From contig CAJQLX010000001.1 in assembly GCA_905479265.1 (NCBI GenBank), positions 62,001-126,000 of the forward strand: 64,000 nucleotides of DNA. The letters are read 5' to 3'. Made by a program: the position numbers and the translations under genes. How positions within the stretch are numbered: the stretch's first letter is position 1; every line of letters starts with the position of its first letter. This document shows positions 32,851 through 39,031 of the stretch, one piece after another. A model generated the notes under the pieces. It was not told the DNA's origin. It saw only the letters and a program-made list of their open reading frames with translations, and ran no database searches. Source of the stretch: an uncultured Alphaproteobacteria bacterium. GTDB lineage: Bacteria; Pseudomonadota; Alphaproteobacteria; UBA7985.

Positions 32851-32927
32851 GGACCGTTAGCTCAGTTGGATAGAGCGAGTGATTCCTAATCACTAGGCCA
32901 CAGGTTCGAATCCTGTACGGTCCACCA
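32851..32927 (+). tRNA. tRNA-Arg (anticodon CCT)
   Basis: A 77-base cloverleaf: 7-bp acceptor GGACCGT/ACGGTCC, D arm GCTC...GAGC, anticodon stem AGTGA/TCACT with loop TTCCTAA, T arm ACAGG TTCGAAT CCTGT, discriminator A and an encoded CCA. The anticodon CCT reads AGG, hence arginine. The gene stands alone; the DNA on its 3' side is AT-richer and carries an orphan gene, so the tRNA may have served as an insertion target, although no attachment repeat of its 3' end was found downstream by eye. Confidence 0.96.
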
Positions 32928-33145: not shown

Positions 33146-34129
33146 TTGGTGAAAAGAGTATTCAAGATACGGGCAGAGAAAACGTTGGCTCCTTACAAAA
33201 ACGCATTTTTCAGCATGCTCGCATTCATTTTGCAGCGAAGACTCGGGTCATCCTATGTTTTCGGCATCTTTATAGCCTTAGTATTCAGCACAAATGCTTC
33301 AACGGCCCATGCTCAATCACTTAAGGACTGTGATGGTAATAATTTCTTTGCAATCGAATACGTCAAAGAAATTAGCTTAACCTCCCTGAGCGGTACGCTT
33401 CTGGTTAGCCTGCCAGAAGATAGCCCTTTTGACGTTTCATCGATCAAAAGCCAGTTATCACCGGCTGTCCGATTAAACAGTGAAATCAATCAAGACAGCG
33501 GCCAAACGGTCAGGAGAAGTTTAGTCACGTTGCCCATTCGTGCAGAGCTCAACAAGTACCCCTTTCTTGAAGCCTTTGTAGACATCAATATCCTCGATCA
33601 AGTGCAAGCCCAAGACTGTGCAAAATCGGACGCGTTGGGACTGCTTGAGGGCAACCTGAGAGGTTGGAAACATACAAATACAGACGTCACGATAAAGGGC
33701 GGATCCCTTAGAGCCTCATACCGCCTCGAAAAGAGCAGAATTCAGATATTCTTTGACGTTATCTTTCCTCTTGGCGCCATGATCATGATCTCGATTTTCA
33801 CATCTCTTTTCATGGATGTCAGGAACTTCGAGCGGATACCCTGGAAGATTGGTGTCCAAGTCACTTTGCTGCTAGCGGCGCTATTTTTACGGTCGTCTTA
33901 TGAGCAAATCGCCCCGCAAAACAATGCTTTGATGCACGGTGATGTGATGTTCATCACCTGCTATTTGACCATTACAATCAGCACTCTTTTCCCGATGGCC
34001 TTCCGACTCGTCATAGACCCTGAGCTGCCTCACTATCCGAGTGCTTACCGGACCGGTCTGTTGCTTCTATACATGGTGGTAGCGGTGAGTGCCGCCACGG
34101 CCATCCTTGTTGTTAGAGGCCTCATTTAA
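33146..34129 (+). CDS. Putative divergent pentameric ligand-gated ion channel (ELIC/GLIC-like)
   Basis: Orphan 327-residue membrane protein. A secretion signal ends at AHA/Q near residue 57, and a mostly beta-like extracellular part spans about 57-199. Four helices follow at about 202-224, 235-255, 267-289 and 301-326 with short loops. In order it shows a GW at 173-174, Arg-rich pre-helix-1 stretch (SYRLEKSR), FPLG at 207-210 in helix 1, FER at 228-230 before helix 2, IAP at 255-257 in the helix 2-3 loop, and Asp 266 opening helix 3. This series matches my memory of the pentameric-channel membrane domain, especially ELIC. The extracellular part is shorter than the usual 190-200 residues. Starts are unclear: TTG 33146, GTG 33149 or ATG 33215, which gives a tidy 33-residue signal. 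The gene is AT-richer than its neighbours and may be acquired. Confidence 0.6.
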   Translation: MVKRVFKIRAEKTLAPYKNAFFSMLAFILQRRLGSSYVFGIFIALVFSTNASTAHAQSLKDCDGNNFFAIEYVKEISLTSLSGTLLVSLPEDSPFDVSSIKSQLSPAVRLNSEINQDSGQTVRRSLVTLPIRAELNKYPFLEAFVDINILDQVQAQDCAKSDALGLLEGNLRGWKHTNTDVTIKGGSLRASYRLEKSRIQIFFDVIFPLGAMIMISIFTSLFMDVRNFERIPWKIGVQVTLLLAALFLRSSYEQIAPQNNALMHGDVMFITCYLTITISTLFPMAFRLVIDPELPHYPSAYRTGLLLLYMVVAVSAATAILVVRGLI

Positions 34130-34227: not shown

Positions 34228-36207
34228 TTACTTTTTGCCCAAGTCGACGACAGCCTCAACGGTCGGCAGATGCGCATAGATGGTTGTTCGGGATAGCCCC
34301 AGCTTCCGTGAAACAAGCGATATGTTGCCGTCATTCTGCAGCCACGTCCGGCGGATGGTCATGCACTTGTCCCGCTTGATCACGCCGTCCGAGCACGACG
34401 GGCAAGGCTGTACTTCATCTTCCTCAGTGGAGAGGAAAGGCGCGACCTGCTGGGGCCTGACGTACTGATCGGTGCTAGCCCGCAAGATCTGGCGCAGCGT
34501 CTTTCGCATCGACCGGATCGACGAAGGCCAGTAGGTTTGCGAGAGCAACCGCACGGTTTCCACGGTCAAAATCTTACTATCATCCAACCCCGTTGCCGTG
34601 CTGCGGATCACGTAATCGATGTCCATACGCTCATTCAGCGATGGAACAGCCAGCTCGTCCGGGATTTCAGCGAGCAACTCCCGCAGGGCAGGCGAGGCGC
34701 ATTCTGCAAACTCTTCACGCGAACGGGACGAGGCAAGGACCAAAAGGTTTGGCAACAAAATATGGAACTTGTGGTGGTCGGGATCGGGTGTTTCCATTGC
34801 ACGGATTACACGCAGCAAATCATCCGCCATTCTCTCCGGCATCTTCTCTGCATTGCGCAGGTACAGCATGCCCTTGGCCGATTTCTGGATCTTGCCGGAG
34901 AAGACACGCGACATCTCCGTATCATGGCTTTGGCGGGGATCAGTCGTCGTCACCGGCGACATGAAATCAGGCTCGAAGTACCCGAGACGGCCCCCGTTGC
35001 CAAACAGCAGACCTTCGTACGTCCGCCCATCGATCAGCGCACAGTCCAACTCGAGGACAGGTGAGCCGGGCGACACCCGCGTCAGAAGCTGGCGGGCAAT
35101 GACGGATTTTCCGGCACCATAGGGTCCGTGACACACCAAGGCACCACCATCTGCCAAGCTCTCTTCCAGCTTATCCAGCTGCGCGAGGATCTGCGGGTCG
35201 CGCGCGTCGGTTGCAGCTTTTGGCTGAGGTGTTGGCTGGCTGGGCGCCTTTGATACACCGCCAAAAATGCGCGATTCAGGGGCTGAGAAATGGATCTTGT
35301 TGATGTACCGCATCAAGTGACCGATTTCTTTGATGGTGAAGTAAACCGTCGAGCGCATGTGGTCTTTGACCATCGCCGTCCCTCGGGTCAGCACCTCCTG
35401 CAGCAGCGTCGAGAAGCGCGCGTCGAAAAGATTCTCAAAGGCGATCGGCCGGCTCAAATCTGAGCCTTGCAGCATCTCTTGCGCACTGCCATTCGCCCCC
35501 ACCACAAAACCGTCTTCATTCAGCGCCAGCAGAGCAGCGCTGGTGGTGTTGAGGTATTCTTTTCGGGGGTGAAATCCGAGGACCAACGCGCCAGCGTGTT
35601 CGGATCGAAACAGACGGTTTTCGACATTAACAGAAGCAAGCTTCACCAAAGCCAGCGTGTGCCGCTGGCGCGAGCGGGCGTCGGTCGAGGCATCAATAAC
35701 CCCCACCACTTCGTTGCGCGAATTGCGGACCGGACAGGCAAAACAGGAGATTTGATCGAGACGACTCAAGTAATGTTCACCGCCATCCACCACAGAAGCG
35801 CGACGGGTCGCGATCGACAGACCCAGCGCGTTTGTTCCACGGATATCTTCCTGCCAAATCGAACCCGGCACCACCATACGGCTGGCGCTGCTGGAGGAGA
35901 ATTCTTGGTCGTGGATGGCTTCGAGGATGGTCCCGGTATTGTCCGCAAAGGCGACGACATAGTTCGAACCGGCGACTTGCGAGAACAGCTCTTGCAGTTC
36001 TGTTTGCGCGAGCTGGATCAGCGCATTGTTCTGCTCCCGCTTCTCGCGCAGTTCTGAGGCATGGAGCATGACGGAGCGCAGGGGGTCTTCCCGTCGAAGT
36101 CCAGCAAACTGGCAACGCTCCCAACTCTCAGCGACCTGCGCGCTAAGTAATGGCGCTTCGACCAACCCGTCAGACGGGGTCTGTGATGAGTCATCCTTCA
36201 TATCCAT
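34228..36207 (-). CDS. AcoR-like transcriptional regulator with degenerate AAA+ domain
   Basis: A 659-residue regulator with an N-terminal GAF-type sensory half of the AcoR kind (residues about 25-205, with SWERC, GTNALGL and FACPV), a PAS-like section (about 215-300), an AAA+ domain and a C-terminal Fis-type helix-turn-helix (about 618-647, GNISLVSRKLGLSRTTIYAHL). Walker A is intact (GPYGAGKS, 361-368). The sigma-54-contact GAFTGA loop is absent (FGNGGRLGYFEP instead) and the Walker B acids are lost (GMLYLRNAEKMP where a DE pair is expected). It is therefore unlikely to drive sigma-54 polymerase by ATP hydrolysis. CPSCSDGVIKRDKC at 602-615 may bind metal. It is divergent from the alcohol dehydrogenase, which it probably controls. 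Confidence 0.85.
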   Translation of the reverse strand: MDMKDDSSQTPSDGLVEAPLLSAQVAESWERCQFAGLRREDPLRSVMLHASELREKREQNNALIQLAQTELQELFSQVAGSNYVVAFADNTGTILEAIHDQEFSSSSASRMVVPGSIWQEDIRGTNALGLSIATRRASVVDGGEHYLSRLDQISCFACPVRNSRNEVVGVIDASTDARSRQRHTLALVKLASVNVENRLFRSEHAGALVLGFHPRKEYLNTTSAALLALNEDGFVVGANGSAQEMLQGSDLSRPIAFENLFDARFSTLLQEVLTRGTAMVKDHMRSTVYFTIKEIGHLMRYINKIHFSAPESRIFGGVSKAPSQPTPQPKAATDARDPQILAQLDKLEESLADGGALVCHGPYGAGKSVIARQLLTRVSPGSPVLELDCALIDGRTYEGLLFGNGGRLGYFEPDFMSPVTTTDPRQSHDTEMSRVFSGKIQKSAKGMLYLRNAEKMPERMADDLLRVIRAMETPDPDHHKFHILLPNLLVLASSRSREEFAECASPALRELLAEIPDELAVPSLNERMDIDYVIRSTATGLDDSKILTVETVRLLSQTYWPSSIRSMRKTLRQILRASTDQYVRPQQVAPFLSTEEDEVQPCPSCSDGVIKRDKCMTIRRTWLQNDGNISLVSRKLGLSRTTIYAHLPTVEAVVDLGKK

Positions 36208-37492: not shown

Positions 37493-39031
37493 ATGAAGAG
37501 AATTACCGTAGCAATCACAAGCATGTTGGTTGGCGTCACCGCCGCTGGTATCGCGGCTGGTGACAAGTGGAGCGATCAGTTCCCGCACATTAAGAACACT
37601 GGCGATATTGCTGGTGAGTGTTCCTATGAGTCCATGTCCCAAAAGGACTACAGTGGCCAAACTCTGACGATCAACACCCACGCTGTTCCAGTAATGGGTG
37701 AGCCAACGGCACTGCACGCTGAGCAATTTTCAGCGCTGACGGGCGCAGAGGTTAACGTCATTCACACCCCGGCGGGTGACTTGTACTCCAAGGCGATGAT
37801 CCCTTTCCAAGCCGGTCAAGCGCCGTACGACATCGTCTTCGGTTTCTCGAACTTCATCCGCGACTGGATGGCCTACCTCGAGCCCGTGCCCGAGTACTAC
37901 GTCAACATGCGTCAGATGCAGGACGTGACCAAGTCACACATCGATGTGGCGTCTTGGGACGGTACGATGATGCAGTTCCCGATCGATGGCGACCGTCATT
38001 ACCTCAAGTACCGCAAAGACGTGATCGACAACCCCGAGCTTCAGGCCAAGTACTTGGCTGAAACAGGCAATGAGTTGCGCGTTCCACAGACGTGGAAAGA
38101 GTACGCCGAAATCGCAGCGTACTTTAATGGCTGGGACTGGGATGGCGATGGCGAGCTGGAATACGGCTCTGCAGAAGTCATGAAGAAAGACGACCTGATG
38201 TACGCGGCATTCTTTAGCCGTTCGGTTGCCTACGCCAAGAACCCAGCAACGCCGGGTGGCTTCTTCTTCGACCTCGATACCATGACCCCGCTGATCAACA
38301 GCCCTGGTTTTGTTGAGGCGCTGACCGATTGGGTTGAGGCCGTAAACTACGTGCCACCGGGTGGCATCAACTTTAGCCTTGGTGACGAAATTAACTCCTT
38401 CGGCGGCGGACAAGCACTGTTCAGCTTCTCTTGGGATGATGCTTTCGTTGCTGCCATGGAAGACGGCAGCGCCATTAAGAACAAGGTTGGTGTTGCTCCT
38501 CTGCCGGGCGCAGATCGTGTCTGGAACCGGGAAACCGGCGCATGGGACGAGACCTACAACCAGGCACCGTACATCGTATGGGGCTGGGCAGCGGCTGTTG
38601 CGAAGAAGTCCAAGAACCACGAGTTGGCCTTTGACTACCTTTGCTTCTTCTCCAACGATGCGAACCACCAGGCAGACATTGCCATTGGTCGTTTCGGTGT
38701 GAACCCGTTCAAGAAGTCTGACTTTGTGCCAGACATCTACATTGAGCGTCAGGGTTGGGATCAGCAGATCGCAGAAGAGTACACAGAGACCCTCATGGAC
38801 ATGGAAGAAAAGAGCACAAACCGTGTGTTCCCACTGCGTGTACCAGGCGTCTTTGAGTTCACAAGCGCAGTTGCAACCGGAACCTCCAAAGCTCTGGCTG
38901 GCCAGCTCTCTCCACAGGAAGCACTCGATGAAGTTGCGGCTGAGTGGGAAGCGATTATCGAGCGTGTCGGTGTCGACAACGTTCGCGAAGCATACGCCGT
39001 TGGCGTAGCCCTGGAAGACAACCTCCGTTGA
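37493..39031 (+). CDS. ABC transporter extracellular solute-binding protein (family 1)
   Basis: Periplasmic binding protein of 512 residues with an N-terminal signal (cut near IAAG/D), LALTGAEVNV-like family 1 core (SALTGAEVNVIHTPAGD), and a DWDGDGELEYG stretch at about 215-225 that looks like a calcium-binding loop. Family 1 proteins bind sugars, polyols, glycerol phosphates and similar compounds. A strong GGGAGGT precedes ATG 37493. It is followed by a hairpin and then by two permeases and two ATPases. The substrate is not evident; the GlpST-like ATPases suggest a polyol or small alcohol. Confidence 0.93.
   Translation: MKRITVAITSMLVGVTAAGIAAGDKWSDQFPHIKNTGDIAGECSYESMSQKDYSGQTLTINTHAVPVMGEPTALHAEQFSALTGAEVNVIHTPAGDLYSKAMIPFQAGQAPYDIVFGFSNFIRDWMAYLEPVPEYYVNMRQMQDVTKSHIDVASWDGTMMQFPIDGDRHYLKYRKDVIDNPELQAKYLAETGNELRVPQTWKEYAEIAAYFNGWDWDGDGELEYGSAEVMKKDDLMYAAFFSRSVAYAKNPATPGGFFFDLDTMTPLINSPGFVEALTDWVEAVNYVPPGGINFSLGDEINSFGGGQALFSFSWDDAFVAAMEDGSAIKNKVGVAPLPGADRVWNRETGAWDETYNQAPYIVWGWAAAVAKKSKNHELAFDYLCFFSNDANHQADIAIGRFGVNPFKKSDFVPDIYIERQGWDQQIAEEYTETLMDMEEKSTNRVFPLRVPGVFEFTSAVATGTSKALAGQLSPQEALDEVAAEWEAIIERVGVDNVREAYAVGVALEDNLR

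Follow-up and report, generated by a model that had tools for sequence, protein, structure and literature searches.

To our knowledge, all known pentameric ligand-gated ion channels (pLGICs), the superfamily to which the neurotransmitter receptors of nerve cells belong, keep a beta-sandwich of about 200 residues with loops A-F. An open frame from an uncultured ocean alphaproteobacterium raises the question of whether a protein with considerably less than this belongs to the superfamily and, if it does, what kind of channel it would form. The frame occupies positions 33146-34129 on the forward strand of a 64,000-nucleotide stretch of contig CAJQLX010000001.1 (the whole of which is referred to here as the window), and a preliminary description had presented its product as a candidate new family of bacterial pLGIC. 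The analysis set out below identifies the window protein as a new compact, divergent variant of the known superfamily.

A maintained gene

The gene (33146..34129, +) is an open frame of 327 amino acids, whereas stop codons interrupt the reverse strand over the same interval. Its N-terminus is uncertain, because translation may start at TTG 33146, at GTG 33149 or further in, but this doubt is irrelevant to the mature protein since a predicted signal peptide precedes it. Hydropathy analysis bears out the secretion signal (peak at residues 33-51) and the four helices noted earlier; the signal peptide would span residues ~33-56 (33242..33313), with likely cleavage before Q57 at an AHA-Q57 motif read from the sequence.

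An ortholog, L003, is found in another species of the genus (genome G003), and is 53-56% identical to the window protein over residues 10-165, where the comparison stops because L003 is cut by a contig end. Codon-position identity between the two genes is 0.71/0.80/0.54, the third position being the most diverged, and the corresponding dN of 0.27 and dS of 1.46 give a dN/dS of ~0.18. From the mature start to the proline of the Pro-loop there are 82 residues in the window protein and 81 in L003. Because this spacing is the same, the short extracellular domain (ECD) is best read as inherited and kept, and on codon-level comparison the short-ECD form is a maintained gene; a frameshift or wrong start behind the short ECD is ruled out, as the ortholog is spaced alike.

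The gene has a G+C content of 46.7% against 57.3% for the window, and the ortholog shows a comparable disparity (46.5% versus 56.3%). Low G+C in both suggests that the gene was acquired from elsewhere before or during its spread in the genus. The same low value, together with a long branch of 1.8 substitutions per site in the TMD tree and a patchy presence in two of the six genomes of the genus, might instead mark a decaying pLGIC gene that no longer specifies a functional channel, but the dN/dS with L003, which is likewise of the short form and equally low in G+C, and a frame with neither frameshift nor internal stop make decay very unlikely.

Membership of the pLGIC superfamily

Searched by itself, the window protein has no match among Pfam and NCBIfam models, with none at E<=1 to PF02931 (Neur_chan_LBD) or PF02932 (Neur_chan_memb), and its best phmmer match in the PDB, the Cys-loop channel ZACN, is suggestive but not significant (E 0.43) and covers M1-M3 only. 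BLASTP against a long-type pLGIC of the same genus, L004, gives E 3e-8 over M1-M3, and L004 is itself recognisable as a pLGIC: in phmmer the structure of a chimeric GABA-A receptor matches at E 5.6e-6, ahead of ELIC and GLIC-based entries, and an L004 profile matches eight bacterial pLGICs at E 2.7e-13. With the window protein as query, 43 genomes of a different alphaproteobacterial order yielded five matches at E<0.001, all of them pLGICs. Matches to pLGICs of family f241 run from E 4e-6 to 2e-4, and one of these proteins (L042) lies above the PF02931 LBD cut-off at 35.2 bits, whereas L004 lies below it. Two further class-wide matches, to a phosphoglycerol transferase-like protein (L009) and to a frame with stops (L010), were discarded as chance.

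Profile comparisons give the same answer. In an HMM-HMM comparison with hhalign, the window protein and its ortholog matched eight bacterial pLGICs at E 1.6e-4 over residues 125-320, the alignments as a whole extending over 120-320. The scores obtained were 37.9 and 46.2; no reversed or block-shuffled control rose above 27.7. When the window protein and its ortholog were left out of the HMMs, these still scored the window protein at 29 and 47 bits, whereas the best among 500 block shuffles reached 7.5 and 18.6 bits for the two HMMs. The significant sequence match spans the Pro-loop to M4 only, the N-terminal 60 residues being assigned from the structural model. In the TMD tree the window protein falls with L004, the related L002 and the f241 pLGICs (support 88.5/89), and the M1-M2 link is 47-49 residues long in this set versus 43-45 elsewhere.

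It could be argued that the protein is an unrelated four-helix periplasmic sensor whose likeness to pLGICs is convergent, as no curated family matches it and hydrophobic helices inflate similarity, a caution voiced in PMC4795631. Such convergence is extremely improbable, and is already largely refuted: the E<0.001 matches in the 43-genome scan are all pLGICs, the reversed and shuffled controls fail, and conserved Pro and Trp landmarks beyond the helices align. Judged on profiles and phylogeny, the window protein belongs to the pLGIC, or Pro-loop receptor, superfamily, and homology is demonstrated at that level. The sequence, profile, tree and fold evidence agree with the original proposal of a divergent pLGIC with an ECD about 50 residues short; the divergence stands, but the label of new family is better replaced by divergent subfamily, because recognisable pLGICs from its genus and from a different alphaproteobacterial family fall in the same group.

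Other pLGIC genes are also of note. The window's own genome carries a second one (L002 1453-2145, from G000:C27), 86% identical to L004 over residues 149-379, in which a HAD-type gene on the other strand occupies the place of the first 148 residues, through either decay or an assembly join. One f241 genome (G866) holds three pLGIC paralogs (L041, L045 and L046), all without the Pro-loop Asp and the pre-M1 Arg and forming a clade whose scores lie below or close to the Pfam cut-offs. In a small-genome alphaproteobacterium of 1.4 Mb (G249), a contig begins with part of a pLGIC of ordinary appearance (L034, 1-621).

Signature residues and predicted fold

The landmarks of the preliminary description (G173-W174, F207-P208-L209-G210, F228-E229-R230, I255-A256-P257 and D266) all lie at the residues it gave. 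Seven conserved positions of the superfamily have been listed by Jaiteh et al. (PMC4795631, Table 1), and five of them, Y138, P139, W174, P208 and P257, align in a 21-sequence alignment. P139, W174, P208, L243 and P257 fall in conserved columns, that of P139 being invariant in the 21 sequences. The Pro-loop is formed by Y138-P139-F140-L141-E142 (33557..33571), in which Leu takes the place of Asp in the family motif [F/Y]PxD (PMC4795631) and is followed by Glu; the proline of the beta6-beta7 loop, preceded by F/Y, is the one absolutely conserved residue of the superfamily (PMC4795631). W174 (33665..33667) is by alignment the equivalent of the conserved beta9 Trp. The pre-M1 Arg is also absent, since by landmark distances its position, 12 residues before the M1 Pro, is taken by K196 (33731..33733). 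Neither missing residue is absolute in the superfamily, the Pro-loop Asp being 93% and the pre-M1 Arg 94% conserved (PMC4795631). Moreover, the closest relatives (L004, L002 and L041-L046) lack both, with Gly at the Asp site and His at the Arg site, and because they also share the longer M1-M2 link and cluster with the window protein in the TMD tree, the missing pair is, on this alignment, a clade feature and no evidence against membership.

In the membrane half, M1 (residues 198-223, 33737..33814) contains P208, M2 (residues 233-255, 33842..33910) is followed by the M2-M3 loop proline P257 at 23' (33914..33916), M3 (residues 264-289, 33935..34012) opens with D266, and M4 (residues 298-323, 34037..34114) lies beyond a short M3-M4 loop, as had been described; M1 and M2 are placed by alignment and model, M2 also from the sequence, P257 by alignment, and M3 and M4 by model and sequence. 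Counting back from P257 places K234 at 0', in the alignment column where other bacterial pLGICs have Arg, and the remaining residues of the M2 region are P232 (-2'), W233 (-1'), G236 (2'), T240 (6'), L243 (9') and R249 (15'). The basic 0' and the Leu at 9' thus also match, and a basic residue at 15' is common to the window protein, L004 (Arg) and the f241 proteins. The ER before helix 2 that had been likened to that of ELIC and GLIC is present as E229-R230, but it is not the equivalent of the conserved basic position, which is K234.

An AlphaFold model built from 21 aligned sequences (pLDDT 69, pTM 0.53) shows seven main strands followed by four helices, with a beta-sandwich at moderate confidence (pLDDT mostly 55-77); a run on 4 sequences gave a pLDDT of 44, too poor for use. 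All 50 matches listed by Foldseek against the PDB are pLGICs (E 7e-8 to 8e-7, probability 1.00), and VIA-align gives Z of about 10-11 across 227-257 residues, at an rmsd of 9-11 A. The expected fold is to this extent recovered, but the pLDDT is only 69 and whole-chain TM-scores are 0.3-0.4 with an rmsd of 9-13 A, so that the domain orientation or parts of the model must be wrong. The support is also not fully independent, because the alignment given to AlphaFold was made of pLGICs. Against BFVD, a library of viral structures, one match was obtained (A0A5J6VL22, from a Megaviridae environmental sample, E 8e-7), the remainder being noise; this entry is annotated as a neurotransmitter-gated channel ligand-binding-domain protein.

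What the short extracellular domain has lost

The ECD, which would be periplasmic, comprises residues 57-196 (33314..33733) and so agrees with the earlier estimate of ~140 residues, versus the usual ~200 with loops A-F; the loop A segment is gone and loop C is a tight turn. Its strands in the AlphaFold model are residues 67-76, 80-90, 108-115, 120-130, 142-150, 174-184 and 187-196. Between the mature start and the Pro-loop Pro the distance is 82 residues, as compared to 113-149 in full-length relatives, whose mature starts were picked by the analyst. From this Pro to the Trp there are 35 residues against 38-43 in full-length relatives, and from the Trp to the M1 Pro 34 against 43-45, with 35 in L004.

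On the model, the shortening is located between strands 80-90 and 108-115, the stretch that in other pLGICs holds beta3-beta4 and the IWxP(D) loop A, the equivalents of beta2 and beta5 being 17 residues apart versus ~50 in L041. In the model loop C has likewise shrunk to a KGG turn and is ~10 residues shorter than its counterpart in ordinary pLGICs. The strand pair 108-115 and 120-130, with a QDSGQ turn in between (residues 108-130, 33467..33535), corresponds, from alignment and model, to the beta5-PDG-beta6 hairpin, and the N-terminal hairpin is assigned by the model as a putative beta1-beta2.

Cysteines occur at 62, 158 and 272 and nowhere else in the protein. C272 lies in helix 3, so the initial observation that C62 (33329..33331) and C158 (33617..33619) are the only extracellular ones is correct. 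They do not bracket the Pro-loop at short range, and the absence of a Cys-loop is confirmed. Both are kept in L003 and may be disulfide partners; the ECD of L004 also has exactly two (76 and 209).

Gating and selectivity

The window protein is likely to be a divergent pLGIC channel subunit, probably pentameric, that is gated without a canonical orthosteric pocket. It would be a secreted-and-anchored four-helix subunit, five of which probably form an inner-membrane channel with a reduced periplasmic beta-sandwich that a C62-C158 disulfide probably staples. The labels "ligand-gated" and "pentameric" are carried over from the superfamily. Because beta3-beta4 and loop A are missing and loop C is a tight turn, while the coupling elements (beta1-beta2 hairpin, Pro-loop, pre-M1 and the M2-M3 loop with its Pro) appear to be kept, gating is presumably not through the canonical inter-subunit agonist pocket but might instead be driven by pH, ions, lipid or a partner protein, with the small ECD or the membrane domain as the site of action.

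One could also envisage a regular agonist-gated receptor in which the shortened loops form a smaller inter-subunit orthosteric pocket, ELIC-like but for another ligand. Every coupling element is present, and L004 also has a short loop C (35 residues from W to the M1 Pro), yet L004 keeps the loop A region, whereas in the window protein the equivalent of the IWxP(D) segment (~33 residues) is absent and loop C is ~10 residues below ordinary pLGICs; such a receptor is improbable. Slightly less probable still is an auxiliary or regulatory role, in which the protein would be unable to open by itself and would enter hetero-pentamers with longer pLGIC subunits: its own genome has the long-type gene L002, but the first 148 residues are missing from L002 as assembled, a second copy did not turn up, and no long-type gene was seen in the ortholog's genome (G003, 82% complete).

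A stronger version of the preferred reading, non-canonical gating, would make the window protein a minimal homopentameric functional pLGIC, whose ECD is without loop A, loop C and the Asp-Arg salt bridge used in coupling, gated without an orthosteric site and having the smallest natural pLGIC sensor domain known. This version is tentative, and somewhat easier to doubt than to accept.

As to selectivity, an acidic residue at -1' or -2' is characteristic of cation-selective pLGICs, and glycine receptors combine Pro at -2' with a basic 0'. Because P232, W233 and K234 place no acid at -2' or -1', a Pro at -2' and a Lys at 0', analogy weakly favours anion over cation selectivity as the better guess.

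Bacterial pLGICs have been proposed to act in chemosensing, some with periplasmic binding proteins (Tasneem et al., PMC549065). A solute-binding protein gene lies at 37493-39031, with two genes between, and is given no weight as a partner.

Genomic setting and distribution

The gene stands alone, with tRNA-Arg(CCT) upstream (32851..32927, +) and a convergent sigma-54-type regulator downstream (34228-36207). Gene content at the tRNA-Arg(CCT), which lies between pip and the gene that follows, varies within the genus, as seen from the loci compared (window 32851-32927; L020 7018-8312; L007 7141-8544; L018 5587-7223): the site holds the short pLGIC in the window, a long pLGIC in G001 and a different secreted protein in G003. 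In G004 it has a ~1.2 kb insert that carries a single membrane-protein gene and has at its boundary a 47-base repeat nearly identical to the tRNA 3' end; a direct repeat of this kind flanking the gene was not found in the window. The site has the look of a place where small single-gene inserts integrate, and two different pLGICs have landed there.

Five other genomes of the order were searched and lack the short form, and no certain case was seen in the rest of the 385-genome class sample. Scans of genome contigs for close relatives returned the ortholog L003 only, and those of viral contigs, plasmids and phages returned no relatives.

Significance and comparison with known systems

In an open-access literature search no relevant account of a pLGIC with a reduced or absent ECD came up, although this does not prove that none exists. 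The window protein is a candidate for asking how little sensor a pLGIC channel needs. If it does form a natural channel, one that dispenses with loop A, loop C and the Asp/Arg pair, the needs of assembly and coupling would be separable from those of ligand recognition, and it would serve as a compact test protein. Curated profiles miss part of bacterial pLGIC diversity, a risk already raised by the authors of PMC4795631.

Among known systems, the nearest is L004 (G001:C6, 379 aa), whose M1-M4 are homologous at 25-26% identity and which, like the window protein, has two ECD cysteines in similar places, a short loop C and Arg at M2 15', and lacks the Pro-loop Asp and pre-M1 Arg; its ECD, however, is roughly full-length, with 119 residues, versus 82, between the chosen mature start and the Pro-loop Pro. 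The f241 pLGICs (L041-L046) share a YPF Pro-loop without Asp, a basic M2 15', an M1-M2 link of 49 residues and a similar beta6 (TLPI.....YPF), but possess a full ECD with an IWHPEF loop A and a long loop C. The solved channels GLIC, ELIC and sTeLIC resemble the window model in fold and order of elements (Foldseek E about 1e-7), whereas their ECDs are ~50 residues longer with all binding loops, and identity is 14% or less. In animal Cys-loop receptors two cysteines flank the Pro-loop, and the window protein is without these. Bacterial pLGICs that bear additional N-terminal domains, DeCLIC among them, belong to the same superfamily and also depart from the standard ECD size, but they add a domain (PMC9897478, PMC12664993), whereas the window protein has dispensed with part of the core domain itself.
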